NCBI RefSeq assembly: GCF_008247605.1
Contig: NZ_CP043420.1
Coordinates: 682,001-746,000, forward strand
Length of the DNA stretch: 64,000 nucleotides
Reading direction: 5' to 3'
Origin: Kushneria phosphatilytica
GTDB taxonomy: Bacteria; Pseudomonadota; Gammaproteobacteria; Pseudomonadales; Halomonadaceae
The notes under the pieces: model-generated
What the model was told of the DNA's origin: nothing
Databases searched by the model: none
The model's input: the letters and a program-made list of their open reading frames with translations, nothing else
Position numbers and translations under genes: made by a program
Shown: piece by piece, positions 43,958 through 64,000 of the stretch
Layout: each line of letters starts with the position of its first letter
Numbering within the stretch: the stretch's first letter is position 1

Positions 43958-45043
43958 TTGATCGTTTATCGCTATCTGACCCGTGAAATCCTGACCACCA
44001 TGGGCGCCGTGACCGGTGTCCTGCTGCTGGTCATCATGGGCAACAAGTTTATCCGTTACTTCAGTGACGTGGCCGAGGGTGACTTCCCGGCCAGTCTGCT
44101 GGGTAGCCTGATGCTCTATAACATGCCCAGTTTCGTGCAGCTGATCCTGCCGCTGGCGTTCTTTCTCGGCATCATGCTGGCCTATGGCCAGCTCTACCTG
44201 AACAGTGAAATGACGGTGCTGTCCGCCTGCGGCATCAGCCCGCGTTCGGTGCTGGGAGCAACACTCTGGCCGGCGGCACTGGTGGCGATACTGGTGGGGG
44301 GCTGCAGTCTCTGGCTGACGCCCTATGGCCTGGCCCACAATGAGGCGATGCTCGATCAGCAGAAGGATCAGGCCGATTTCAGTGCGCTGGCGCCAGGACG
44401 CTTTCAGGAAATTGGCGATCGCACGGTCTATGCCGAAAGCATCGATGGCGATAACAGTCGCATGCACAATGTGTTCATTGCCGAATCCGATCGGCGTGCC
44501 GATGGTTCCCGTCGCCAGATTCTGACGCGTGGTGAAAGCGGTTATCAGACCAGCGGTAGTGGCGACAACGGCAACAGTCGCTATCTGGTACTCACCGATG
44601 GCGCACGTTACGCCATTACGCCCGGTGATCATCGCGCCGAACGGCTGGAGTTCGAGACCTACGCGCTGCGCCTGCAGGACCAGGCCGAGCAGACCAGTTA
44701 TGACGATACCGAGCTGCTCTCCACTGGTGCGCTGCTTTCGCGTCAGGACGAGGGCGCCATGGCGGCGCTGCAGTGGCGGCTGTCGCTGGCACTCATGGTG
44801 CCCATCCTGACCCTGATTGCATTGCCGTTGTCGCGCGCCAGCCCACGCCAGGGACGTTTTGCCAGGGTGCTGCCGGCCATCTTTATCTATATCGCCTACA
44901 TGAGTCTGCTACTGGCCGCCCAGGATGCCCTGAGCAATGGACGTTACAGTGCTGCCATCGGCATGTGGCCGATTCATGTCATCTTTCTGCTGATGGGACT
45001 TTGGCTGTCGTGGCGCGATGGCGTCGTGGGAGGAAGACGCTGA
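43958..45043 (+). CDS. lptF: LPS export permease LptF
   Basis: 361 residues, starting at TTG 43958 with acggag upstream (LIVYRYLTREI, matching family starts). Six helices with a periplasmic jellyroll (about 115-260) in the middle: helices near 15-40, 55-75, 95-120, then 275-295, 305-325, 335-350. With LptG it extracts LPS from the inner membrane, powered by LptB. It overlaps lptG by one base (TGATG) and is divergent from pepA, 211 bases away, the usual order. Confidence 0.95.
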   Translation: MIVYRYLTREILTTMGAVTGVLLLVIMGNKFIRYFSDVAEGDFPASLLGSLMLYNMPSFVQLILPLAFFLGIMLAYGQLYLNSEMTVLSACGISPRSVLGATLWPAALVAILVGGCSLWLTPYGLAHNEAMLDQQKDQADFSALAPGRFQEIGDRTVYAESIDGDNSRMHNVFIAESDRRADGSRRQILTRGESGYQTSGSGDNGNSRYLVLTDGARYAITPGDHRAERLEFETYALRLQDQAEQTSYDDTELLSTGALLSRQDEGAMAALQWRLSLALMVPILTLIALPLSRASPRQGRFARVLPAIFIYIAYMSLLLAAQDALSNGRYSAAIGMWPIHVIFLLMGLWLSWRDGVVGGRR

Positions 45044-46104
45044 TGCTGCTCAATCGACTCGATCGCTACACGGCTCGCACCGTACTGGTGTCGATGTTCA
45101 TGGTGCAGGTGTTGCTGCTTGGGCTGGACTTCGTCATCAATTTCATCAGTGACATCGAGGATGTCACCGATTCCTATACCACGTTCAACGTGCTCTTCTA
45201 CACTTTTCTGCGCCTGCCATGGCGGTTCTATCAGTATGCGCCGGTCAGCGTATTGATCGGTGCACTGGTGGGGCTGGGGGCGATGGCCTCCAACAACGAG
45301 CTGACGGTCATGCGTGCGGCAGGCCGCTCATTGTTGCGTATCCTGTGGAGCGTGATGAAGCCGCTGGGACTGGTGATCATCATTACCATGCTGGTGGGTG
45401 AATTCGCGGCGCCCTGGAGTGAGCAGTATGCCCAGTCCTTTCGCGCCGAACAGCGTCAGGGCAGCAGTGTGGCGTCCGAGGATGGGGGCTGGCAGCGCGA
45501 GGGCGACAGCTTCTATCGCTTCGGTTCGATTCGCACCGACGATACGGTGATCGATTTCAATCGCTATCGCTACGATGGTCAGCAGCTGGTCGAGGCGCAG
45601 CATGCCGATCGAGTGGTGCATGAAGATGGTCAGTGGGTCCTGCACAATATTCGTACGACTCACATCAACGACGACAATACGACCACCTCGACCCGTGAGA
45701 GTGCCACCTGGCAGACCTCGCTGACCCCGGAACTGCTGCGACTGATCATTACCGATCGTGACAGTCGTTCGATGACCGACCTGTGGCGATATGCCCACTA
45801 TCTCAATAGTCAGGGCCTTTCGGCGACCAGTTCGTGGCTCTACTTCTGGCAGAAGCTGCTGTTGCCACTGATGCTGGCCTCACTGGTGCTGGTAGCGGCC
45901 TCGTTCGTCTTTGGTCCGCTGCGTAGCGTGGCCGCGGGCACCCGGGTGTTCTACGGCACCATCGTGGGGCTGACATTCAAGTATCTGCAGGATCTGCTGG
46001 CGCCAGCGGCCACCGTCTTTGGCTTCTCCCCGATCTGGGCGATTCTGACACCCACCCTGGGCTGTTTCCTGCTGGGCTTTTATCTGCTGCGCCGCTCGGC
46101 ATGA
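45043..46104 (+). CDS. lptG: LPS export permease LptG
   Basis: 353 residues from ATG 45043 within TGATG of lptF. Motif MLLNRLDRYTARTVL starts helix 1; RLPWRFYQYAPVSVLIGALVGLGAMASNNELTVMRAAG (about 55-90) is the coupling-helix region that meets LptB. The earlier frame to 44773 runs in the lptF gene and is not the start. It ends in ATGA overlap with the LPS-kinase-like gene, so all three are one operon. Confidence 0.95.
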   Translation: MLLNRLDRYTARTVLVSMFMVQVLLLGLDFVINFISDIEDVTDSYTTFNVLFYTFLRLPWRFYQYAPVSVLIGALVGLGAMASNNELTVMRAAGRSLLRILWSVMKPLGLVIIITMLVGEFAAPWSEQYAQSFRAEQRQGSSVASEDGGWQREGDSFYRFGSIRTDDTVIDFNRYRYDGQQLVEAQHADRVVHEDGQWVLHNIRTTHINDDNTTTSTRESATWQTSLTPELLRLIITDRDSRSMTDLWRYAHYLNSQGLSATSSWLYFWQKLLLPLMLASLVLVAASFVFGPLRSVAAGTRVFYGTIVGLTFKYLQDLLAPAATVFGFSPIWAILTPTLGCFLLGFYLLRRSA

Positions 46105-47147
46105 CGGGGCTGCTGCGTCCGGTCTGGATGCGTCGACAGCTCAGCGGACCCTGGCGATGGTCCGGTGCCGGATGGCAGTGGTGGCTGGCTGGTCCCGACG
46201 GCAGGCAGCCTGCTCGCTGCCTTGATGACTACCTGCATCACGATGATTCATCAGCGGTGGTACAACTGCGTGCCAAGCAGTCGAGACCCCGCTGGTGCTA
46301 TCGCATTGATGATCTTTCCGGGCCGGAGCAGCACTGGTTTGCCAAACGCATGGTACTGTCCCGGCGTCAGCGGCCAGGCGCGCTACTGGGGCTGAGTCAT
46401 CGCTGGGTGGGTCTGGCCCATGGCAGCGCCGAGTTCCATCATGCCCTGATGTTGTCACAACGTACTTCACTGGGTGTGACCATGCTGGCGCTGGGCGAAC
46501 GCCTCGAAAGCGGCATGCCGGCAGAGCAGGCACTGATCAGTGAGTGGCTGGGAGAGTGGACGACCTTTGGCCATGCCCTGGCGTCATCGCCTGGCGCCCG
46601 TCGGGTGGCGCTGATGAGTGCCCTGATGGAGGCGCTGCGTCAACTCTACAATGCCGGTATCTGCCATATGGATCTGCATCCCGGCAATCTGCTCGCCCCC
46701 CGGGCACGGCCTGGCGAAAACGACCGGCCACTACAGCTGAAAGTGATCGATTGTGCACGTGTCAGTCTCAAGGCTGCACCGGACGCTGCAACGGCGATTC
46801 ATCTCGGGGTGCTGATCCATGAACTGAATGGCAAGCGCGATGGCCTCGATCCGGTGTTGGAACAGGCAGCGGGCCATCTGCTGAGGGCCATCGTCGGGCA
46901 CCCGGGGCCGGCGGTCGAAAGGTTGCTCTCACTGGTGTTGCGTTACTCCACCAAGAAGCCTTTCTCGCGTCACTCATTGATCGCCCGCTCACCCGAACGA
47001 TTGCCGCTCGATCGGATCGAACGCGAACTGCGAGAGATGATCGCACGTCGCCCACCCCAGACCATCGAGCCGGTCATGGCAGGCCCTGAACTGGCAGCTC
47101 TGATCGAAACCGCGCTGGATCAGGCAGCTGATATTCCGATGCGATGA
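46101..47147 (+). CDS. LPS kinase-like protein (InaA/Kdo kinase superfamily)
   Basis: 348 residues. Protein-kinase-like active site HMDLHPGNLL at about 189-198 (catalytic Asp191, Asn196) and the metal Asp in KVIDCARVSL (about 214-223) in place of DFG. Fits the lipopolysaccharide kinase family (InaA, Kdo or heptose kinases), which phosphorylate the inner core. Translationally coupled to lptG by ATGA overlap, so a step in LPS maturation is a fair inference. Its 3' end overlaps the convergent GT2 gene by 28 bases. Confidence 0.75.
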   Translation: MTGLLRPVWMRRQLSGPWRWSGAGWQWWLAGPDGRQPARCLDDYLHHDDSSAVVQLRAKQSRPRWCYRIDDLSGPEQHWFAKRMVLSRRQRPGALLGLSHRWVGLAHGSAEFHHALMLSQRTSLGVTMLALGERLESGMPAEQALISEWLGEWTTFGHALASSPGARRVALMSALMEALRQLYNAGICHMDLHPGNLLAPRARPGENDRPLQLKVIDCARVSLKAAPDAATAIHLGVLIHELNGKRDGLDPVLEQAAGHLLRAIVGHPGPAVERLLSLVLRYSTKKPFSRHSLIARSPERLPLDRIERELREMIARRPPQTIEPVMAGPELAALIETALDQAADIPMR

Positions 47148-48151
47148 TGGTACCAGTAGTGCATCAGCCGGGCCGGCCATCGTCGGGTCAGAGGAGAGCG
47201 CAACAGCGTTTGCCCGAGCTGGGGACTGAAGGCATGACGTGCACGCCAGCATAGCCCGGCCCAACGCCCACTGGTGACCGCCGCCAGCGCTTCGGGCTGA
47301 TGCCGGCGGCTGTGATGGTTGGCCTGCTCGATCCGGCGTAACCACTGCTCTGCCCAGATCAGGTAGTCGGCAGTCAATGCCTCACCCAGTTTGCCCGGTC
47401 GTGAAAGGTCGTAGTGCCCTGCCAGTTCCTCCTGAGAGGGCGCGAGCCCGATCTCTTCGAGCGCTCGTCGACAGATGGCCTCCTTGCGTTCTCGACCGAC
47501 TTCGCCGGTCTGACGGGTAAAGCGTGCAGCGTGCTCCCGGCCACACACCAGAATCTGTGGCAGATTGGCCATGCGGTGAGTACGTGAAAGGCGCTGATGC
47601 AGGTCGTAGTCCTGACAGCGGGGAAATGACTCGTCATAACCACCGATCTCACGTAACAGCGCCGTGCGAGCGAGAATGGTGCGATTGGTCAGGGCGCAGT
47701 AAAAGGGCAGACTGGCATCGACTTCTGCAGCAGATACCGGGCGACGGCGAACGCGTTTCAGCATTCGGCCGTGCTCATCCATGAAATTGCAGGCACTGCC
47801 GATCTGAGCCAGTTCGGGATGACGATCCAGCATGGCGACCTGTCGGGTGAGTCGTTCGGGCCAGGCGCGATCATCGCTGTCGAGCAGCGCAATATATTCG
47901 CCTCTTGCCAGTGCCAGCCCGCGGTTGCGGGTGGCCGGAATGCCCAGGTTACCCGGATTGGTTTCAACCCTCAGTCGTGGATCGCGGTATTGAGCCAGCA
48001 CGTCCAGCGTGGCATCGGTCGAGCCGTCATCGACAATCAGCAGCTCCAGGTCCGTATAGGTCTGTTCAAGGATGCTGTCGACCGCCGTCACGATATAGTG
48101 CTGACGATTATGGACAGGTATGAAGACAGTGACCCGTGGGGGAGAAGACAT
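47120..48151 (-). CDS. Glycosyltransferase family 2 (copy A)
   Basis: 343 residues from ATG 48151 (aggag upstream; a GTG at 48160 lies in that site). GT-A fold: VTVFIPVHNRQHYI (about 6-19), DLELLIVDDGSTDAT, and LDSDDRAWPERL with the DxD-like Asp pair near 92. The C-terminal third matches the other GT2 at 58204: NRGLALARGEYIALLDSDD and LTRQVAMLDRHPELAQIG align. Last gene of the minus-strand glycan operon and overlaps the convergent LPS-kinase-like gene. Confidence 0.88.
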   Translation of the reverse strand: MSSPPRVTVFIPVHNRQHYIVTAVDSILEQTYTDLELLIVDDGSTDATLDVLAQYRDPRLRVETNPGNLGIPATRNRGLALARGEYIALLDSDDRAWPERLTRQVAMLDRHPELAQIGSACNFMDEHGRMLKRVRRRPVSAAEVDASLPFYCALTNRTILARTALLREIGGYDESFPRCQDYDLHQRLSRTHRMANLPQILVCGREHAARFTRQTGEVGRERKEAICRRALEEIGLAPSQEELAGHYDLSRPGKLGEALTADYLIWAEQWLRRIEQANHHSRRHQPEALAAVTSGRWAGLCWRARHAFSPQLGQTLLRSPLTRRWPARLMHYWYHHRIGISAA

Positions 48152-48156
48152 GGGGT

Positions 48157-50562
48157 TCACTCCTGCCAGTGACGTTCGCCGGCGCGGCGCCTGATCTCTT
48201 CAACGGTTGCCTGCATTTCATCCGGTACCGGCATGGCAGGCGGTTGGAAGGCAGGTTGATCCGCGCCCTGCAGTGGCTGACAGAGCCCACGGATACGCAG
48301 CGTTTCGCCGAGGTGCTTGAGATCGCGCGGCGTGCGTACGATGCCCTGGGAATGGAGGCGATCAAAGAAGCGGCCGCGCCAGTCCTGCTGGCGGTGGGTG
48401 CCGCGGGCGCTGGTCTGGCGGGTGCGCTGATTCATCCATTCCACGATCCTGGCCTGGCGCCGGGCCCTGCGAGAGAGGGGGAGTGGCTTCAGCTGATAGA
48501 GCCAGACAGGACGATGGGTTCTGATGGCTTCGGCCATCATGGAAGCGCTGTCATCAGAGACAATGAACCCATCCGAGAGCGCCAGCAGGGCGGGATGGAA
48601 GTGGTCCTGTTGTTGTGGCTGCCATTCGTTCAGATAGCTCGGGACGGCAAGCTCTTCGCGCAGCGCGTCGATGACCGCTTTCGGCGTCCGCGGGCTGGTT
48701 GTGATCAGCAGTGACCCGCCATGCTGCTCTGCCAGCCCGGCCGCCGTCTGGAGCATCTCTCTGGCATCCTCGGCCTCGAACTTCTGCAGGCTCGTGGTGC
48801 CGCCTACCAGCACGCCATACCAGGGGCGTGGCAGGTGGTCAAGCCGACGCTGCCAGGCTTTCAGAACATCGTCTGCCACGGCCGGTGGCCGGTTGAGGGG
48901 GAGCAGGTTGTGGTGAATGTGTTCGCGTGCCGGCAGACCATACTGAGGCGTGGTCACAATCAGGTCGAACCAGTGTAGCGGGGCCCGCGGGCGCCCCAGC
49001 CAGATCAGCTGAGTGCGGCCACCCGAGTGACGCTGAATCCAGCGGGCGATATTGACAGTGCGGCGTCCGGTGCTCATGACAATATCCGGCCACGGTCCCT
49101 TGAGCTCTCCCAACTGCTTCGCTTTGACGCCTCGCAGTGAAGGCCGGGTCAGTAGCATCAGGCGGGCTGGCTTGAAATCGATCAATGGCGGTTTTTCAAC
49201 CACTCGCCAGTTCAGCTCCTTTCCCAGCGCACGCAACTGGGCATTATCACCGGCATGTTCGCTCAGCAGCAGCCAGACGACGGGCTGAGCCGACTCGGCG
49301 GGCTGTTCGGTTCGGGCGCCGGTCATGGCAGATTGGACAACTTCCACTCGATTGCTGCTGCCACGCCGGATATCGAGCTGCCAGACCAGCCGGGGATGAT
49401 GTTGTGCCAGCGTCCGAAGCTGGCGTTGCCACCAGTGGATGCTGTGCAGGGCCGTATCTGCGGCCCGGGCATCTGCAGAGAGGTGCAGTCCGATATACAG
49501 CAGTCGCTGACTGTAGCGTGCCAGCCGTTCCAGCACCCAGGGAATATCCTCGCCGGGCAGATGTTCCAGCAGACCGGTGACGGCCACACCGTCGGCACAG
49601 TCGTCGCCGAGTGATTGCAGTGAGTGTTGGTTAACCCGGTCAACCGGTAGAGGCGCGTTGGCAGCAACCTGAGCTGACGGATGACACCAGATCAGGTCAT
49701 GCAGTGACATGTCAGCGGCGAGTCGAATGGCTCCCTCGCTGGCGGTAAAGGCGGGAATCGACTGCTGTTCGAGCGTTTTCAGTGCGCCCTCGAACCAGGG
49801 GCTCGGCGCTTCGGCTGTAAAGGGGCCATAGTGACGGGCATCCGCTTCCCGTTCGAGCTCGAACCAGAGATCCTCCAGCGGATGGGCATGATAGGAGTAG
49901 GTGGTGGGTGTCGGCTGCCAGGGCTGTTTATGGAGTGCCGTGTAGTGCAGCACTCTCGCCGTCAGTTCCGAATACTCCTCATCACGGGTATTCCAGCCGC
50001 CATCCAGAGCTCCCCAGAGACCGGTCTTCTCAGCGGCGCTGGCAATCAGCTGGCGTTTGCTCTGCTGACGAGCCGTATCCAGATTCCACAGGGGCAGCAT
50101 CCGGGCGCAATCGATCAGCATGACCGAAGTATCCTCCGGCGAGATCGATAGATAGCCATGTTCTGTCAGTGGCAGATCGAACAGGTGAGCGGGATCTTCC
50201 AGATAAATCTGATCGACATCGTTATAAATGGCGCGGCCTTTACCACCGGCAAACGCGGGGATGGCATAGCGGTAATTGGTAAAGCCGGTGCGCCACTGGC
50301 TTTGATCGAATCCATCCAGATCCTTCATCAGATAAACTCGGTACTCGCGATCCGGGTTGCGATGCTTTTCCACTGAAAACAGAAAGATGCGCTGAGCACG
50401 GACCTGTGCCTGTTCGGTTCCCAGGTAGATGCAAACCGGAGGGGCGTCTGGCGATGAATCGTTCAGGGCTGGAAAGACCACACAGTGCGGCATATCCGGG
50501 CTGGCGGCGCGTTCAATCTGCAAGGGGGCTTTCGGGATGGATGTACTGGTTGGCAGAGGCAT
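48157..50562 (-). CDS. GT8-like / methyltransferase-like / ELM1-like fusion protein (copy B)
   Basis: 801 residues with no full-length match I can name. About 43-215: GT8-like, with AIYNDVDQIYLEDP (DxD at 115-117), SPEDTSVMLIDC and HYTALHKQPW near the end, as in glycogenin/LPS galactosyltransferases. About 320-405: a methyltransferase-like stretch (GVAVTGLLEHLPGEDIPWVL) without a visible GxGxG SAM loop, so perhaps dead. About 428-715: ELM1/DUF1022-like (VVWLLLSEHAGDNAQLRALG, LGRPRAPLHWFDLIVTTPQYGLP, SDGFIVSDDSASMMAEA). Alignable along its length with the gene at 50698. Stops six bases before the GT2 start. Confidence 0.72.
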   Translation of the reverse strand: MPLPTSTSIPKAPLQIERAASPDMPHCVVFPALNDSSPDAPPVCIYLGTEQAQVRAQRIFLFSVEKHRNPDREYRVYLMKDLDGFDQSQWRTGFTNYRYAIPAFAGGKGRAIYNDVDQIYLEDPAHLFDLPLTEHGYLSISPEDTSVMLIDCARMLPLWNLDTARQQSKRQLIASAAEKTGLWGALDGGWNTRDEEYSELTARVLHYTALHKQPWQPTPTTYSYHAHPLEDLWFELEREADARHYGPFTAEAPSPWFEGALKTLEQQSIPAFTASEGAIRLAADMSLHDLIWCHPSAQVAANAPLPVDRVNQHSLQSLGDDCADGVAVTGLLEHLPGEDIPWVLERLARYSQRLLYIGLHLSADARAADTALHSIHWWQRQLRTLAQHHPRLVWQLDIRRGSSNRVEVVQSAMTGARTEQPAESAQPVVWLLLSEHAGDNAQLRALGKELNWRVVEKPPLIDFKPARLMLLTRPSLRGVKAKQLGELKGPWPDIVMSTGRRTVNIARWIQRHSGGRTQLIWLGRPRAPLHWFDLIVTTPQYGLPAREHIHHNLLPLNRPPAVADDVLKAWQRRLDHLPRPWYGVLVGGTTSLQKFEAEDAREMLQTAAGLAEQHGGSLLITTSPRTPKAVIDALREELAVPSYLNEWQPQQQDHFHPALLALSDGFIVSDDSASMMAEAIRTHRPVWLYQLKPLPLSRRARRQARIVEWMNQRTRQTSARGTHRQQDWRGRFFDRLHSQGIVRTPRDLKHLGETLRIRGLCQPLQGADQPAFQPPAMPVPDEMQATVEEIRRRAGERHWQE

Positions 50563-50596
50563 GGAGTGTCCGGGTTATGAAACGATGTTCATGAAG

Positions 50597-50613
50597 ATTA
50601 AGGAAACATTAAC
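50597..50613 (-). promoter_or_regulatory. PmrA/BasR-like direct repeat before fusion gene B
   Basis: Minus strand GTTAAT-n5-CTTAAT, two TTAA cores 11 bases apart, 35 bases before the start of the fusion gene B. Confidence 0.45.
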
Positions 50614-50697
50614 AACTCCTTGTGGGGAACGGAAGCAGTCGCTCTGCCCGCGATGCTGGCGAGAAGATTGGATTGAGCAGGAAGAAGCAAGGGCGGG

Positions 50698-53157
50698 CTA
50701 CTCTTGCCGGTAGCGCTCGCCTGCGCGCAGTCGCATTTCTTCGACCGTGGCTTCGAGTTCATCATTCATGGGAATACTCCTGCGAGCTTCGGGATCAGAC
50801 GCCGGCCCGTCAGCCAGGGGCTGGATCAGCCCACGGATTCGCAAGGTACGATCGAGCAGGTTCAGATCGCGCGGCCTGACCAGCAGACCCCGCGTAAAAA
50901 GAAAATCATGAAAGCGACCCTGCCAGTTCTGCTGTCGATGAACGCCACGATGATTGAGTTGCCGGGTACGTCGACAGAGCCAGTCATGCAGCGCGTTAAA
51001 AAGCCGGTTGGTAAAAGAGGGCGAGACACTTTCCAGTGCATAAATCCAGGTAGGCTGCCGGGTGGTAATGGCTTCGGCCATCATGGAAGCACTGTCATCG
51101 GAAACGATGAATCCGTCACAGAGCGCCAGATAAGCCTGATGCGGATTATCCCCCCCCTGGTGTGTCTGCCAGTCATAGGTAAAGGCAGGGACGTCAATCT
51201 GCTCGAAGAAGGCTGTAGTGACGTCGGGTGGTGTGCGCGGGCTTGTCGAGACCAGTAGTGAGCCGCCCCGGTCTCGCGCCAGTGCACAGGCCTGTCTGGC
51301 CATGCGTACGGCGTCTTCGACAGGGAAGGGTTTTGCTCGCGTAGCACCACCGATCATGACACCCAGCCAGGGGCGAGGCAGTGCGCTCAGGTGCTGGCGC
51401 CACGCCTCCCGGGCGGCATCATCATGATTCGGTCGGTTGAGTGGTAACAGGTTATGGATGATGTGATCGCGTGCCGGCAGGCCATACTGGGGTGTGGTGG
51501 CGATCAGATCGAAGTGATCAAGAGCGACCCGGGGCCGGCCCAGCCAGAACAGCTGAGTGCGTTGTCCTGATTCGCGGCGAATCCAGCGGGCGACATTGAC
51601 ACTGCGGCGGCCGATGCCCAGGACGATATCAGGCCAGGGAGGTGCGAACTGATTCCGATTGCCGGGATGCAGGATTTGCAGGGTTGGGCGGGCGCCCTGC
51701 AACAACCGCATTGAACGGGCTCGAAAGACCAGAGGTTTCTCCTCCCAGGGCCAGCCGAGCCAGTCGGCCAGTAGCCGGAGCTGGGCGTTGTCGCCCCGAT
51801 GTACTCCGGTGAGTACCCATACGCTGGGCTGCGTATGCTCGGGCACATCTGACAGGCGGGCGCCTGGCAGTGTAGAGCTGACCACTTCCATTTTGCGTCG
51901 GCTGCCGCGACGAATATCGAGGTGCCAGCTCAGATGAGGGTGATGCCGGTTCAGTCGGCGGAGCTGTTGCCGCCACCAGTGCGTCATGCTCAGGGGCAGC
52001 CCCTGATGCACATTGGTGGAGAGTTCCAGGCCGACATAAAGCAACCGGCGGGAACGCTGTGCCAATTGCTCCAGCACCCAGGGGATATCCTCGGCGGGCA
52101 GATGTTCGAGCAGATGAGTGACGGCTACGCTATCTAGGGGCGTCAGTTCATCGGCTGGGCTTGTCTGCAGCTCGCTGATGAGCTCAGCCGGTGTGCAGGT
52201 CCGGTAACAGGCGGCAGGCAGAGGCGGATTGTCCGCATGTTGCGCCGGACGACACCAGAGCAGCGCTTGCAGGGAGAGATATTCAGCCGTATCGCGAGCG
52301 GTCCTGCCAGGAGAAAAGGCAGCGCTCGATAGCGCTTGTAACGTGCTCAGAGCACCTTCGAACCAGGGGCTGGGCGTCGCGGCGCTGAAAGGACCATAGC
52401 CCTGAACATCGGCTTCGCGCTCAAGACCGAACCAGATATCCGCCAGGGGGTGGGGCTGATAGGAGTATCGATCCGGCATCGGCTGCCAGGGCTGCTGATG
52501 CAGCGCCGTAAAGTGCAACAGGCGTGGTGTCTGATCGGCATACTCTTCATCGCGGGTATTCCAGCTGGCATCAAGCGGCGCCCAGAGCCCGGTTATATGC
52601 TCGACATGATGCAAAAGGTTCTGCTTGCTATAGCGTCTGGCCGTATCCTGATTCCAGTAATGCGCCATGCGCTCACAGTCGAGCAGCATGACGGATGTTT
52701 CCTCGGGGGAGAGCGCAAGATAACCATGCCCGCCCATCGGCAGATCGAAGAGGCGGGCAGGGTCCTCCAGATAAATCTGACCGACATCATTGTAGATGGC
52801 GCGCCCCTGACCTTCTGCCAGTGTCGGGATGGCATAGCGGTAATTGGTAAATCCGGTGCGCCAGTGGTGGCGATCAAACCCCGCCATGTTCTTCAGCAGG
52901 TAAATGCGATATTCCCGCTGCGGATCGCGAACCTTTTCGATGGAGAACAGGAAGATGCGCTGAGCACGCACCTGAGCCGTTTCGCTGCCGACATAAATAT
53001 GAACCGGCGGCCGCCGCTCGCCAACGGGTTCCAGAACCGGCAGTACCACGCAGTGAGGCATGTGAGGGGTGGTAGCGCGTTCGACGTGGATCGGGCGCGA
53101 GGCAATCGAAGAGGTAGGCAATCTTGTCACATGGGTGTCCGGTCGCATTGCCGCCAT
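50698..53157 (-). CDS. GT8-like / methyltransferase-like / ELM1-like fusion protein (copy A)
   Basis: 819 residues, paralogue of the gene at 48157, with the same three parts in the same order: YIYVGSETAQVRAQ-type start of the GT8 domain, AIYNDVGQIYLEDP where the first DxD Asp is kept but the second is Gly, SVAVTHLLEHLPAEDIPWVLEQL in the middle, and GRPRVALDHFDLIATTPQYGLPARDH plus SDGFIVSDDSASMMAEAI in the ELM1 part. Both copies end in DELEATVEEMRLRAGERYRQE-like tails. DxD loss suggests copy A may not be an active transferase. Start M1 or Met4. Confidence 0.7.
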   Translation of the reverse strand: MAAMRPDTHVTRLPTSSIASRPIHVERATTPHMPHCVVLPVLEPVGERRPPVHIYVGSETAQVRAQRIFLFSIEKVRDPQREYRIYLLKNMAGFDRHHWRTGFTNYRYAIPTLAEGQGRAIYNDVGQIYLEDPARLFDLPMGGHGYLALSPEETSVMLLDCERMAHYWNQDTARRYSKQNLLHHVEHITGLWAPLDASWNTRDEEYADQTPRLLHFTALHQQPWQPMPDRYSYQPHPLADIWFGLEREADVQGYGPFSAATPSPWFEGALSTLQALSSAAFSPGRTARDTAEYLSLQALLWCRPAQHADNPPLPAACYRTCTPAELISELQTSPADELTPLDSVAVTHLLEHLPAEDIPWVLEQLAQRSRRLLYVGLELSTNVHQGLPLSMTHWWRQQLRRLNRHHPHLSWHLDIRRGSRRKMEVVSSTLPGARLSDVPEHTQPSVWVLTGVHRGDNAQLRLLADWLGWPWEEKPLVFRARSMRLLQGARPTLQILHPGNRNQFAPPWPDIVLGIGRRSVNVARWIRRESGQRTQLFWLGRPRVALDHFDLIATTPQYGLPARDHIIHNLLPLNRPNHDDAAREAWRQHLSALPRPWLGVMIGGATRAKPFPVEDAVRMARQACALARDRGGSLLVSTSPRTPPDVTTAFFEQIDVPAFTYDWQTHQGGDNPHQAYLALCDGFIVSDDSASMMAEAITTRQPTWIYALESVSPSFTNRLFNALHDWLCRRTRQLNHRGVHRQQNWQGRFHDFLFTRGLLVRPRDLNLLDRTLRIRGLIQPLADGPASDPEARRSIPMNDELEATVEEMRLRAGERYRQE

Positions 53158-53275: not shown

Positions 53276-53992
53276 TCAGGCAGCGCGCCGGAACCAGTTT
53301 TTGACCGTTTTGGTGAACTGCTTGAGTGGTCGCGCATCGCGGATAACCACAATCATGACCTTGCGATAGTACTCCGGCGGGCAGGTGATCTCGCGAACGC
53401 CATGCCATGAATTGCCCCGACGGGTAAACAGAAAGCTCTGGTTTCCCATGGCAATTGATTCGATCTCTTCGTCGAACTCCTCGAATTCGGGCGCGCTTCG
53501 GGTCTTGAAGCGTCCGTGATCGTCCAGCACCACCGTCTGGCCACCCCATTCCGGTCGCCAATCCTCCTCCGTATTGAAGTAGAAGATATGCGAGCCCAGC
53601 TTCCAGTTGGCATCACAGTGTGGCGAGACCGAACAGCTGGCCGGCGTGTAATGCCAATGACACTTCAGTGTGAAGTGGTTCGTGTTCAGCATCCGCGCCA
53701 GGAAACGCCGATACTCGGGGCCATGCAGTTCTTCCATGAAGGCCTGCCAATGGGGTGACAGGGGCATACCGGGTTCGTAATCCAGCGACAGTCGGTCATG
53801 TGGCTTCTGTCCGTGCTGGCGCGTCTTGCCGAAGATGCGGTCAAAACGCTCCGCTTCCGGCAGGCTTTCCCTGAGTGCCCTGAATCCTTCATCGGTCAGC
53901 AGACCCGCCGGGTTGGCCCAGGGGTAAGGGTGCCGATTCAGGAAGGCCCGTTCATCCATCTTCTCCAGGGCCTCGAAATCGAGATAGCTCAT
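53276..53992 (-). CDS. 2-oxoglutarate/Fe(II)-dependent oxygenase
   Basis: 238 residues from ATG 53992 (starts at 54034 and 54082 are also open). Metal triad His125-x-Asp127 in SVSPHCDANWKLG and His197 in NSWHGVREI, with Arg near 210 as 2OG ligand. Prolyl-hydroxylase-like fold. The N-terminal HPYPWANPAGLLTDEGF is family-like. It precedes the fusion genes on the same strand by 118 bases, so it may head that operon. In glycan clusters such enzymes hydroxylate lipid or sugar acyl groups; here that is inference. Confidence 0.78.
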   Translation of the reverse strand: MSYLDFEALEKMDERAFLNRHPYPWANPAGLLTDEGFRALRESLPEAERFDRIFGKTRQHGQKPHDRLSLDYEPGMPLSPHWQAFMEELHGPEYRRFLARMLNTNHFTLKCHWHYTPASCSVSPHCDANWKLGSHIFYFNTEEDWRPEWGGQTVVLDDHGRFKTRSAPEFEEFDEEIESIAMGNQSFLFTRRGNSWHGVREITCPPEYYRKVMIVVIRDARPLKQFTKTVKNWFRRAA

Positions 53993-54123
53993 CGTTGAAA
54001 CCTGATCTGACGTCGGATTGGTTGGCTCGATCATCCGGCCTGCGCCCTGCGAAATCAACCTCGTCTGAACTATCAACGCCATTGGATCTGGCCGGGTAAG
54101 CGGATAGTGTCACCCAGTCGAAA

Positions 54124-54140: not shown

Positions 54141-54223
54141 GTGAAGGTGTCATCGTATTGCGCTCGTCTATCCCGCTATACGGCACTATGCTGCCCTCAT
54201 CCTATACATGCAGTGACGCGTCC

Positions 54224-54874
54224 ATGGCTTTCGAGTATCGCGATAACGACAGTCCTGCGGACGTCGTCTGGAATACCGGCAGTGTCACGCCGGAAATGCG
54301 CAGCCGTCTCAAGCCGCATGCAGGACACTGTATCTGGCTGACCGGCCTTTCCGGATCGGGCAAATCGACCCTGGCCAATGCCCTGGAGGTCGAGCTCAAC
54401 CGACGTGGCTGTCACACCATGCTGCTGGACGGTGACAATATTCGCCACGGATTGTGTCGTGACCTTGGCATGAGTCAGTCCGATCGCAGCGAAAACATTC
54501 GTCGTATCGGCGAGGTGGCGCATCTGTTCGTGGAATCCGGCCTGATTGTCATCACCGCCTTCATCTCTCCTTTCGCCAGTGATCGGCAACAGGCCCGTTC
54601 GCTGTTTCGATCCGGTGAGTTCCATGAGGTGTTTGTCGATACCCCGCTCGGACTCTGCGAGAAGCGCGATCCCAAGGGGCTGTATCGCCGGGCCCGGGCC
54701 GGGGAGATCCATGACTTCACCGGCATTGACAGCCCCTATGAACCGCCGATGCATCCGGAGTTGACCCTGCTTGCCGAGGACAGTCAGCAGCGTCATATCG
54801 AGCAATTGCTGGCGCTTTGCCTGTCCGCCGAAGCGGAGATCGCTAACGAGCCCGAGGCTGGCCAGGCACAATGA
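54224..54874 (+). CDS. cysC: Adenylylsulfate kinase CysC
   Basis: Makes PAPS from APS and ATP. 216 residues from ATG 54224; the open frame to 54158 adds an unlikely tail, and no strong ribosome site marks either. Walker A GLSGSGKST at 41-49, LLDGDNIRHGLC (about 69-80), FVDTPLGLCEKRDPKGLY (about 144-161) and DFTGIDSPYEPP (about 170-181) are the APS kinase motifs. No cysD/cysN is nearby, so ATP sulfurylase is elsewhere. Followed by two sulfotransferase-like genes, so its PAPS is probably meant for them and not for sulfur assimilation alone. Confidence 0.93.
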   Translation: MAFEYRDNDSPADVVWNTGSVTPEMRSRLKPHAGHCIWLTGLSGSGKSTLANALEVELNRRGCHTMLLDGDNIRHGLCRDLGMSQSDRSENIRRIGEVAHLFVESGLIVITAFISPFASDRQQARSLFRSGEFHEVFVDTPLGLCEKRDPKGLYRRARAGEIHDFTGIDSPYEPPMHPELTLLAEDSQQRHIEQLLALCLSAEAEIANEPEAGQAQ

Positions 54875-54951
54875 ATTCATGAAAACAATGGCGCTTCGGC
54901 CGAGGGAGTCGACAGATATTCCCTGTCATGACAGTTACAACAGGAGCAGGC

Positions 54952-55929
54952 ATGACCGTTGAAACGAGCCTGACCGAACACGAGACTCAGCGGGCAGTTG
55001 TGGTCATTGGTGCCGGTCGTAGTGGCACCAGCACCCTGACCCGGGGCGTGCAGTCGCTGGGTGTCGAGCTGGGCAACCGACTCAAGCGTGGTACTTCCAA
55101 GAACCCCAAGGGGTTTTTCGAAGATGAGGATCTGTTGTCGATCAACAAGCGACTGCATTACGAGTTCGGGCTGCAGGGGACCGGTACCAGCCTGCGTCCC
55201 ATCGAAGAACAGGAGTGGCAGACCCGGCAATGGCGTTCCTTGCATGACGAGGCTGTCCGGGTCATCCGGGGGCGTTTCGGTAATGCGCCACTATGGGGCT
55301 TCAAGTCCGGGGGTGTCATGCGTTTGCTGCCTTTCTGGGAGCAGGTCTTCGACACGCTGGGCGTCGAGGTGAGCTATGTGATCGCGGCGCGTCATCCGCT
55401 ATCCGTGGCTCGTTCGCGCGCCAAGCTCAGCGAAGTACGCGGCCGTCAGGAAAAAAGCGATCTGGAGTGCCTGATCCGGGTCGTGCCCTATTTTCACCTG
55501 CTGCGCAGTCACCGGTTCACGGCCGTCGATTACGATCAGCTGATGAGCGAACCGGAACAACAGATGTATCGACTGGCCGAACGACTCTCCCTGCCGATCA
55601 CGGCAGAGGTCGAGCGTGAAATCGGCGTGTTTGGAAAGGAGTTCGTCAGCCCCGAACTGCGGCATCATCAGGGGGAAGACCCGGATGCTCGTGCGCGCCT
55701 CAATCCATTGATTGATCAGGTCTGGCAGTGGCTGGAAGGCCTGTCCAGCGACCGGATCACGACCGATGATCCCGAACTCTGGCGTGACATGGCGCGCCTG
55801 CGTGATGAGTTTCTGGCGATGGGGCCGGCGCTGCGTCATATCGATTATCTTGAAAGACGTCTGGCGTCTCCGGTCTCGAAGCTGCGCTGGTTCGGGCGGG
55901 GGCGCCGTCCCAATCGTGGTGCCGCCTGA
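54952..55929 (+). CDS. Sulfotransferase-like protein (copy 1)
   Basis: 325 residues from ATG 54952 (caggagcaggc). P-loop for PAPS 5'-phosphosulfate GAGRSGTSTL at 20-29 and the 3'-phosphate region AARHPLSVARSRAKL near 143-157, which are the two PAPS-binding boxes. C-terminal half helical and basic (KLRWFGRGRRPNR), perhaps peripheral membrane. Follows cysC by 77 bases; next gene starts directly after its stop. Acceptor probably a sugar of the surface glycan; inferred from the neighbours. Confidence 0.82.
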   Translation: MTVETSLTEHETQRAVVVIGAGRSGTSTLTRGVQSLGVELGNRLKRGTSKNPKGFFEDEDLLSINKRLHYEFGLQGTGTSLRPIEEQEWQTRQWRSLHDEAVRVIRGRFGNAPLWGFKSGGVMRLLPFWEQVFDTLGVEVSYVIAARHPLSVARSRAKLSEVRGRQEKSDLECLIRVVPYFHLLRSHRFTAVDYDQLMSEPEQQMYRLAERLSLPITAEVEREIGVFGKEFVSPELRHHQGEDPDARARLNPLIDQVWQWLEGLSSDRITTDDPELWRDMARLRDEFLAMGPALRHIDYLERRLASPVSKLRWFGRGRRPNRGAA

Positions 55930-56997
55930 ATGGCCGATTCCGATACTGCACAATCCTTGCGAGGCGGGCTGACAGCCAAGCGAGTCGAGCGTGGCCGTCG
56001 TCTGGCCGGTGAGCTCACGCGTGGGGCCGGATGGGGCCTGCGCGGTGGGTGGCATTTATTGCAGGGCCATCATGGTGCGGCGCTCGCTGAAGCCGCCCGG
56101 ATCGTGCGAGGTGTTCAGCCCGCCCGGGAGTCGATGCGTACCTACCAGCTGGTAGATCGTTTGCTGTCACGCAGTGGGTCAGCGCTGGCTGACTGGCGAC
56201 CGGATGAGCAGTCGCCACAGCGATTCGTGTTCTTTGTCGGCTATAGCCGCAGCGGTCACTCACTGGTCGGTTCGCTGCTGGATGCCCATCCCTCCGTGGT
56301 CATTGCCCATGAGATGCATGCCCTCAAGCATCTCTACCGGGGCTACCCATTTGACCAGGTGGTCAGGGCGATCAAACTCAATGCCATGCTGTTCGATTAT
56401 CTCGGTCGTGAATATACCGGCTACGACTATCAGGTGCCGGGCCAGTCGCAGGGGCGTTACGAGCAGTTGGCTGTAGTCGGTGACAAGAAGGGGAATGGCA
56501 CTCTGCGACTGCTGCGCCGGTATCCGGAGCTGATCGATCGGCTGGATACGTTATTGCCAATGCCTTTCGAGTTCATCCATGTCATCCGCAACCCATGGGA
56601 CAACATCGCCACTCGGGCGCGGCGTACGAATACCTCGCTTGAATCTGCAGCGCGGGGTTATCTGGCCAATACTGATCTGATGGCTCGACTGAAAGCCCGC
56701 TATCCCGATCAGGTAAGGGATGTCTATCTCGATGACCTGATCCATGATCCCCGGCAGACGCTGTCCACCCTGCTCGAAGCGCTGGGATGCACGCCGGTGA
56801 CCGAATCGTATCTGGATGCGTGTGCGTCGATCGTGTTTCGCAAGCCCAGTCGCACTGGTGCTCAGGTGAGCTGGCCCGCTGCGCTGACACGTGAGGTGGA
56901 GGCTTCGCTGGCACGTCACGATTTTCTTCAGCGCTTTGCCGAAGCCTCCTATGCGCCGGCACGGCGTCAGTCACAAGGCCATGGGGTCGATTCTTGA
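55930..56997 (+). CDS. Sulfotransferase-like protein (copy 2)
   Basis: 355 residues. A basic N-terminal 90 residues precede the P-loop FFVGYSRSGHSLVGSLLDAHP (about 101-121; the PAPS 5' box), and HVIRNPWDNIATRARR (about 217-232) is the 3' box. Matches the bacterial glycan sulfotransferase group, with a GNGTLRLLRRYPELIDRL helix between. It starts with ATG immediately at the stop of copy 1 and its stop overlaps the TTG start of the GT4, so all are co-translated. Confidence 0.82.
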   Translation: MADSDTAQSLRGGLTAKRVERGRRLAGELTRGAGWGLRGGWHLLQGHHGAALAEAARIVRGVQPARESMRTYQLVDRLLSRSGSALADWRPDEQSPQRFVFFVGYSRSGHSLVGSLLDAHPSVVIAHEMHALKHLYRGYPFDQVVRAIKLNAMLFDYLGREYTGYDYQVPGQSQGRYEQLAVVGDKKGNGTLRLLRRYPELIDRLDTLLPMPFEFIHVIRNPWDNIATRARRTNTSLESAARGYLANTDLMARLKARYPDQVRDVYLDDLIHDPRQTLSTLLEALGCTPVTESYLDACASIVFRKPSRTGAQVSWPAALTREVEASLARHDFLQRFAEASYAPARRQSQGHGVDS

Positions 56998-63200: not shown

Positions 63201-64000
63201 TCAGGCCGGGGCTTCGCTGGTTTCCGGCTTTTCCACTCGCGCCAGCTGTCCCTGTTCCAGTCGATAGACAATGTCCGCGGCCTGGACGAGGGCCGGCTGG
63301 TGAGATACGGCAACGATGGTCAGTTGATCGCCCAGCCCCTTGAGGGTTTGGCTGATAGCGGCTTCGGAAACCGGATCGAGTGCGCTGGTGGCTTCGTCGA
63401 GAATCAGCAGCCGGGGCTGGTGAGCCAGCGCACGTGCAATCACGATGCGCTGGCGCTGCCCACCCGAGAGCCGATTGCCGCGCTCGCCCACCGAATCGTG
63501 TATGCCCTTGTCCATCCGACTGACGAAGTCCCAGGCCTCGGCCTGACGCAATGCCCGCTCGGCATCCTCTTCGGTGAGCGAGGGGTCACCGAGGGTGACG
63601 TTGGCCAGTACACTGTCATGCAGTAGCAGGGTTTCCTGCGGGACATAACCGATCATCTTGCGCCAGGCGATCCGATCAATTTCGGAAGTAGGTACGCCAT
63701 CGATGTGAACATTGCCCTGGGTCGGTTCCAGCAGCATGCACAACAGATCAAGCAGGGTGGTCTTGCCGGCGCCGGAGGGACCAATGATAGTGACGAAAGA
63801 ACCGGCCGGGATGGTCAGATCGGTCTGTCCGAGGATGGCATGCTCGCCATAATGAAAGCGCACGTCCCGGAAGGTAATCTCATGCTCCAGGGTGGGAAAG
63901 CGGGTGCCTCCCGTCGGCTCCGCATTGTCCTGAGCAGCCTGCACGACATCCTTGAGCGCCCAGTAGGCACTCTCCTGGGTCTGCATCTGCTGGTAGCGGC
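63201..64000 (-). CDS. ABC exporter ATPase domain (partial, MsbA-like)
   Basis: C-terminal nucleotide-binding domain of an ABC exporter; its membrane part lies beyond the right edge (the frame stays open to 64000). ITIIGPSGAGKTTLLDLL-type Walker A (GPSGAGKTT) follows RDVRFHYGEHAIL, the signature is RLSGGQRQRIVIARAL, and Walker B is LLILDEATSALDP. Exporters of this type move lipids, glycans or peptides; next to a glycan locus a polysaccharide or lipid A flippase (MsbA-like) is plausible. The identity of the transported compound is not visible. Confidence 0.9.
   Translation of the reverse strand, partial: RYQQMQTQESAYWALKDVVQAAQDNAEPTGGTRFPTLEHEITFRDVRFHYGEHAILGQTDLTIPAGSFVTIIGPSGAGKTTLLDLLCMLLEPTQGNVHIDGVPTSEIDRIAWRKMIGYVPQETLLLHDSVLANVTLGDPSLTEEDAERALRQAEAWDFVSRMDKGIHDSVGERGNRLSGGQRQRIVIARALAHQPRLLILDEATSALDPVSEAAISQTLKGLGDQLTIVAVSHQPALVQAADIVYRLEQGQLARVEKPETSEAPA

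Follow-up and report, generated by a model that had tools for sequence, protein, structure and literature searches.

Tandem fusions of GT8-type, degenerate methyltransferase-like and ELM1 parts in Kushneria phosphatilytica

We analysed a stretch of 64,000 nucleotides of the genome of the halophile Kushneria phosphatilytica (contig NZ_CP043420.1 of assembly GCF_008247605.1, positions 682,001 to 746,000 of the forward strand; hereafter the window). Two neighbouring minus-strand genes in it, A and B, encode proteins of about 800 residues made of a GT8-type glycosyltransferase part (part 1), a methyltransferase-like middle part (part 2) and an ELM1 domain (part 3). The fusion is real, well-formed and widespread, and is in part already named by NCBI. 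On balance, we think that each fusion is a cytoplasmic two-module glycosyltransferase for the lipopolysaccharide (LPS) core or another lipid-linked acceptor.

Three-part architecture and its spread

An initial annotation had predicted this pair of genes, and both were confirmed as intact frames. They are 58% identical and free of internal stops. When A was searched against its own 3.62-Mb genome (E<=0.001), only A and B were matched. A sequencing frameshift, considered in the initial annotation, and a chimera or assembly artefact are unlikely sources of the two genes, since Kushneria sinocarnis carries both intact and in the same order as in the window.

The ELM1 assignment of part 3 is upheld by PF06258, which scored 167.1 bits in A and 161.4 bits in B (curated cut-off 27). 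Of 41 rows scanned, the 40 full-length ones (B plus 39 relatives) all have the domain, and the 41st is a middle-part fragment. Foldseek listed GT-B enzymes such as MurG (7d1i_A, E 6.5e-6), without alignment ranges. Together with the published model of KdoT, an ELM1-like protein of Acinetobacter baumannii, these rows suggest a GT-B fold for part 3. Sequence searches of the PDB with A, with the alignment and with one single ELM1 protein gave no credible relative, and an NCBIfam scan gave one chance-level match each for A and B.

To our knowledge, KdoT is the only bacterial ELM1 member with known biochemistry. As described in the available text of two reports, KdoT (locus 2903) transfers the third 3-deoxy-D-manno-octulosonic acid (Kdo) of lipooligosaccharide from CMP-Kdo, has a predicted GT-B fold and is encoded in an LPS-core locus (PMC12856342, PMC10936431). 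The available text also calls its SRRT motif highly conserved; the R180A mutant loses most activity, R180K does not, and R179A is without effect (PMC12856342). In the fusions, the arginine aligned with R180 (R625 in A) is R in 120 of 122 rows, an alignment that rests on profile alignment to single SRRT ELM1 proteins, KdoT's own sequence not being among those compared. The full SRRT motif is absent from A and B, which have SPRT, and the R179 position is P in 83 of the 122 rows and R in 3. The fusion motif is thus mostly SPRT, in which the arginine dispensable in KdoT is replaced and the important one kept.

For part 1, the GT8-like character is borne out by the fold: structural comparison of the predicted structure of A gave a GT-A fold of GT8 type. 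With Pfam, PF01501 (GT8) was below its curated cut-off in B (E 0.14, 12.1 bits against 24.3) and gave nothing at E<=1 in A; it was found at E<=1 in 23 of the 40 full-length rows (best 5.4e-4). The DxD is the metal motif of GT8 enzymes, and the initial annotation had described one copy with Gly for its second Asp. This copy is the gene at 50698-53157 (B), because the motif there is NDVGQ and that of A is NDVDQ. The first Asp (D115 of A) is kept in 122/122 aligned rows and the second (D117) in 116/122.

We also observed two large proteins (L024:8515-10587 and L025:7833-9980) in which a related GT8-like N-terminal part is joined to a C-terminal part with weak GT4-type matches, near or under cut-off. 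Given this layout, the GT8-like module seems to recur with other GT-B partners.

Part 2 was described earlier as methyltransferase-like without a glycine loop for S-adenosylmethionine (SAM), and the profile search agrees. Two relatives matched by the profile, P0121 (7.7e-22) and P0122 (3.6e-19), have the glycine-rich SAM loop, their own Pfam methyltransferase matches being somewhat under the cut-offs, but the loop pattern occurs in 0/122 rows. We therefore rejected an active methyltransferase. Foldseek with the middle part as query gave nothing at E<=0.001. Without its SAM loop, this methyltransferase-like domain probably acts as a spacer or as a platform for the acceptor.

With B as query, 7991 candidates were scored and yielded 295 relatives at E<=1e-3; all 120 listed show PF06258. 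Named records gave 225 pattern matches, of which 132 encode a relative, and 79 distinct loci were kept, many of them from metagenome-assembled genomes and many on contigs that end early. Their titles cover Gamma-, Beta-, Alpha- and Deltaproteobacteria, Nitrospirae, Myxococcota, Planctomycetota and others. All three parts lie in one frame in 72 of the 79 loci (75 frames, with two in L058 and three in L073); the other seven have a frame without one or two parts, some at contig ends. The fusion occurs in 2 of 10 genomes of the genus. Among 146 genomes of relatives searched, 10 gave any match, seven of these to one part only, and PF06258 is present in 76 of 293 genomes sampled from the order. A first scan of genome contigs gave 12 pattern matches and no relative.

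In some loci the parts are separate. GT8-like and ELM1 genes adjoin in L026 (genome G098) and L027 (G129), near lptF/lptG homologues and an ABC exporter, and two further loci of G098's genus, L052 and L057, show this pairing too. With the fusion's ELM1 profile, the ELM1 genes of all four reach 282-367 bits. In a Methylopila sp. (L134:8830-11218), parts 1 and 2 lie in one frame and part 3 in an overlapping one, either a natural split or a sequencing error.

The initial annotation knew of no described protein with this order of parts. This fits the literature searched, in which no paper on such a fusion was found, but the architecture is widespread in databases and some members are named putative glycosyltransferases. 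Proteins such as P0007, P0014 and P0016, which align to 89-98% of B, carry the NCBI name "ELM1/GtrOC1 family putative glycosyltransferase". The name disregards parts 1 and 2, and we found no biochemical basis for it.

Duplication and divergence of the two copies

A phylogeny of 47 rows places A, B and both K. sinocarnis copies in one group of five rows that also holds P0004 (SH-aLRT 98). A pairs with the K. sinocarnis A and B with the K. sinocarnis B; therefore, the duplication is older than the split of the two species. On the same tree, the second Asp was lost separately in P0011 and P0012 (Gly; P0012 is from Halomonas ventosae) and in P0040 (Ala).

We compared the copies between the two species. 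The GT8 part is 83% identical in A and 74% in B, the middle part 64% and 54%, and the ELM1 part 78.5% and 81%. Rough dN/dS values (NG86, with high dS) were 0.09 in A and 0.18 in B for the GT8 part, so that of B appears somewhat relaxed yet still constrained. For the ELM1 part they were 0.17 and 0.11, and for the middle part and last 41 residues of B 0.37 and 0.50. Fisher tests, only indicative since they take sites as independent, gave p 0.02 for the GT8 part and p 0.44 for the ELM1 part (A pair against B pair), and p 0.04 for GT8 against ELM1 substitutions between the pairs.

Azotobacter beijerinckii has three neighbouring full fusion genes in one stretch (L073:6332-16551). The third has NEVG in place of NDVD, with both Asp lost and the His-PW and SPRT motifs kept. 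On the tree it has a long branch (0.57) and groups with its two neighbouring copies and the proteins of A. chroococcum and A. vinelandii, and from this placement its DxD loss is independent of that in Kushneria B. Its ELM1 part is 59-60% identical to the other copies and its GT8 part 63-68%; as the ELM1 part is conserved no better, constraint on ELM1 alone is not supported here.

Gene neighbourhood

The 2-oxoglutarate (2OG) oxygenase and GT2 neighbours noted at the outset were found, in the minus-strand order 2OG oxygenase, B, A, GT2. Judged by strand and spacing, the four would form one operon. The coordinates are given in Table 1.

Table 1. Features of the two fusion genes and their surroundings (positions in the window)
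Feature	Position	Strand	Remarks
Fusion gene A	48157..50562	-	801 aa; DxD intact; model pLDDT 90.8, pTM 0.92
A part 1, GT8-type GT-A domain	49819..50445	-	residues about 40-248
A DVD motif	50212..50220	-	residues 115-117
A part 2, degenerate class I methyltransferase-like domain	49288..49815	-	residues about 250-425
A part 3, ELM1 domain PF06258	48379..49254	-	residues 437-728; E 6.8e-49
A R625 of SPRT motif	48688..48690	-	aligned with R180 of KdoT SRRT
Fusion gene B	50698..53157	-	819 aa; Gly for second Asp of DxD
B part 1, GT8-like domain	52387..53016	-	family part-1 profile, 4.8e-108; B among profile-building rows
B G126 replacing second Asp of DxD	52780..52782	-	Ala in K. sinocarnis copy
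B part 2, degenerate methyltransferase-like domain	51862..52380	-	family part-2 profile; B among profile-building rows
B part 3, ELM1 domain PF06258	50983..51795	-	residues 455-725; E 3.6e-47
2OG-Fe(II) oxygenase gene	53276..54082	-	PF13640 E 1.7e-5, 26.1 bits (cut-off 27); upstream of B
GT2 glycosyltransferase gene	47120..48160	-	PF00535 1.9e-32; downstream of A; start overlaps A end by 4 bases
WaaP/Kdo-kinase-like gene (weak)	46101..47147	+	PF06293 E 0.0016, 18.4 bits (cut-off 21.3)
Putative lptF and lptG (two LPS-export permease genes)	43958..46104	+	assigned from sequence and order
Adenosine phosphosulfate (APS) kinase and two sulfotransferase-like genes	54158-56997	divergent from fusion genes	Pfam scan
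ABC exporter frame end	63201-63986		end of 586-codon open frame running beyond window; similar to 570-aa exporters in L026, L027

Within the fetched flanks of the 79 loci (E<=1e-5), 33 loci have a homologue of lptF or lptG, 29 one of the 2OG oxygenase, 26 one of the ABC gene and 14 one of GT2, although weak lptF/lptG matches may be paralogues. A stricter count (E<=1e-10, loci with a full fusion frame only) gave lptF in 19, lptG in 16 and the 2OG oxygenase in 28. By stop-to-stop frame ends, 15 of these 28 2OG genes lie within 300 bases of the fusion, one of them (L077) being an artefact of a long open frame. As controls we took 29 genes from other places in the window: 21 were found in no locus, six in 1-7 loci and two ABC ATPases in 26. 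The ABC count near the fusion therefore says little.

The 2OG oxygenase homologues near the fusion are 47-93% identical across phyla, barring one weak match at a contig end, and the nearest solved chain is 9ei6_A (E 4.7e-7). PF11004, which we take to be the Kdo hydroxylase family, was not among the Pfam matches of the 2OG gene at E<=1, although the enzyme may still catalyse that reaction. We can only guess at a core sugar as its substrate.

In the stretches fetched from three other Kushneria genomes (G001, G002, G008), lptG is followed by none of the named island genes, and the fusion island is hence accessory. A homologue of the first sulfotransferase was found in 7 of the 79 loci and of the APS kinase in one (K. 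sinocarnis); separate sulfotransferases adjoin the split genes in L026 and L027. Genes of the WaaA, heptosyltransferase and HldE families (PF04413, PF01075 and TIGR02198, all over cut-off) are present in 10/10 Kushneria genomes, and we therefore rejected a replacement of the ordinary inner core by the fusions. The ordinary heptose/Kdo family genes of the window's genome are remote from the window, at about 28-38 kb.

Proposed function and comparison with known enzymes

In the mechanism that we favour, part 1 would be a GT8-type GT-A module, metal-dependent, retaining and using a UDP-sugar donor by analogy with GT8 enzymes, and part 3 a putatively active GT-B module of the ELM1 family. Part 2, its SAM loop lost, would act as a spacer or acceptor platform. 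Two successive sugars, in either order, would be added to the LPS core or another lipid-linked acceptor prior to export. After the duplication in the Kushneria lineage, A would keep both modules, and the GT8 site of B would have lost its second metal-binding Asp, and with it, we infer, its activity. For this reason B would probably rely mostly on its ELM1 part, perhaps with another acceptor, and A. beijerinckii would repeat the pattern independently. Kdo as donor is a lead, not a result, and a tentative one.

Several observations weigh against this mechanism. Part 1 scores under the Pfam GT8 cut-off, and the structural alignments listed with ranges cover part 1, leaving the GT-B fold of part 3 a prediction. 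The aligned arginine is less uniform in a wider set made up of A, B and the 75 fusion frames: of these 77 rows, 57 have R, 7 K, 9 another residue and 4 a gap. Scored with the fusion's ELM1 profile, most of the order's single ELM1 proteins that we examined reach about 22-54 bits. The single genes of L026, L027, L052 and L054-L057 reach 282-378, and the fusions, some of which were among the rows building that profile, 469-517. As all ten Kushneria genomes keep their inner-core genes, there is no inner-core gap calling for a Kdo transferase. A sulfated exopolysaccharide would also fit the adjoining sulfotransferase-like, APS kinase and GT4 genes.

The last point leads to a reading in which the same two-module enzyme makes a sulfated exopolysaccharide or capsule instead of LPS core. 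The divergent APS kinase, sulfotransferase-like, GT4 and GT2 genes, the sulfotransferases beside the split genes and the accessory nature of the locus all agree with it. However, lptF and lptG serve LPS export, their homologues accompany 33 of the 79 loci across phyla, and homologues of the sulfotransferase and APS kinase are rare there; we consider an exopolysaccharide product unlikely. Catalysis by the GT8 module alone, with the ELM1 part binding the acceptor or acting as a scaffold, would agree with the remoteness of this part from most single ELM1 proteins and with SPRT in place of SRRT. The role of bacterial ELM1 proteins was called unknown in 2024, in the available text of PMC10936431. 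This reading is improbable, as the aligned arginine is nearly invariant in the near relatives (120/122), B has an altered GT8 site and an ELM1 part conserved as much as that of A, and all four rows with a changed DxD among the 77 (B, two DVA frames and the NEVG copy) retain the arginine.

The initial annotation had suggested that one copy might be catalytic and the other regulatory. The GT8 site of B is indeed altered in both Kushneria species (Gly, Ala), A and B are neighbours on one strand, and A. beijerinckii has the same pattern. But the GT8 part of B is still constrained, its ELM1 part is 81% identical between species with a dN/dS of 0.11, and DVG is also seen in P0011 and P0012, which are closely related to each other. 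We consider it very improbable that B is a regulatory or pseudo-enzyme partner of A; from these comparisons, a GT8-weak or GT8-dead, ELM1-active enzyme fits B better.

Extending the two-module mechanism, the fusions could form a widespread two-site LPS-core class, with Kdo or a related sugar added by a module of the ELM1/KdoT class, the next or previous sugar added by GT8, and hydroxylation of that sugar (e.g. Kdo to Ko) by the 2OG neighbour. Gene duplication followed by loss of GT8 activity in one copy would then have recurred among lineages, each time leaving a dedicated ELM1-only transferase. We regard this as quite unlikely in full.

Bacterial ELM1 proteins are still labelled "mitochondrial fission" in records, although Kdo transfer by one of them was demonstrated in 2025. 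The fusion family connects ELM1 with a GT8 module and with genes of LPS export over several phyla, the laboratory organism Azotobacter vinelandii included, and so gives a testable function to a large set of misnamed genes. Kushneria B and the A. beijerinckii copy are two natural experiments separating the GT8 and ELM1 modules.

With LgtC and other GT8 enzymes (PDB 1g9r, 3tzt), part 1 has in common the fold, the DxD (intact in A) and a conserved His that precedes a PW motif; the acceptor-side DQD of GT8 enzymes was, by eye, not evident in it. The fusions differ from these enzymes in scoring under the Pfam cut-off, in being fused, and in the missing second Asp of B. The bifunctional glycosyltransferase WbbM (PDB 6u4b) has GT111, not ELM1, as its other module, and its domain order is unlike that of the fusions. 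By the descriptions rather than by direct sequence comparison, KdoT shares with the fusions the ELM1 type, a predicted GT-B fold, an SxRT motif with the second arginine aligned, and a place in an LPS-core locus, putative for the fusions. Residue numbering did not serve to recognise KdoT orthologues in the genomes examined. Unlike the fusions, KdoT is a single ELM1 domain with SRRT and, in the available text, a demonstrated donor, GT8 or methyltransferase parts not being mentioned there.
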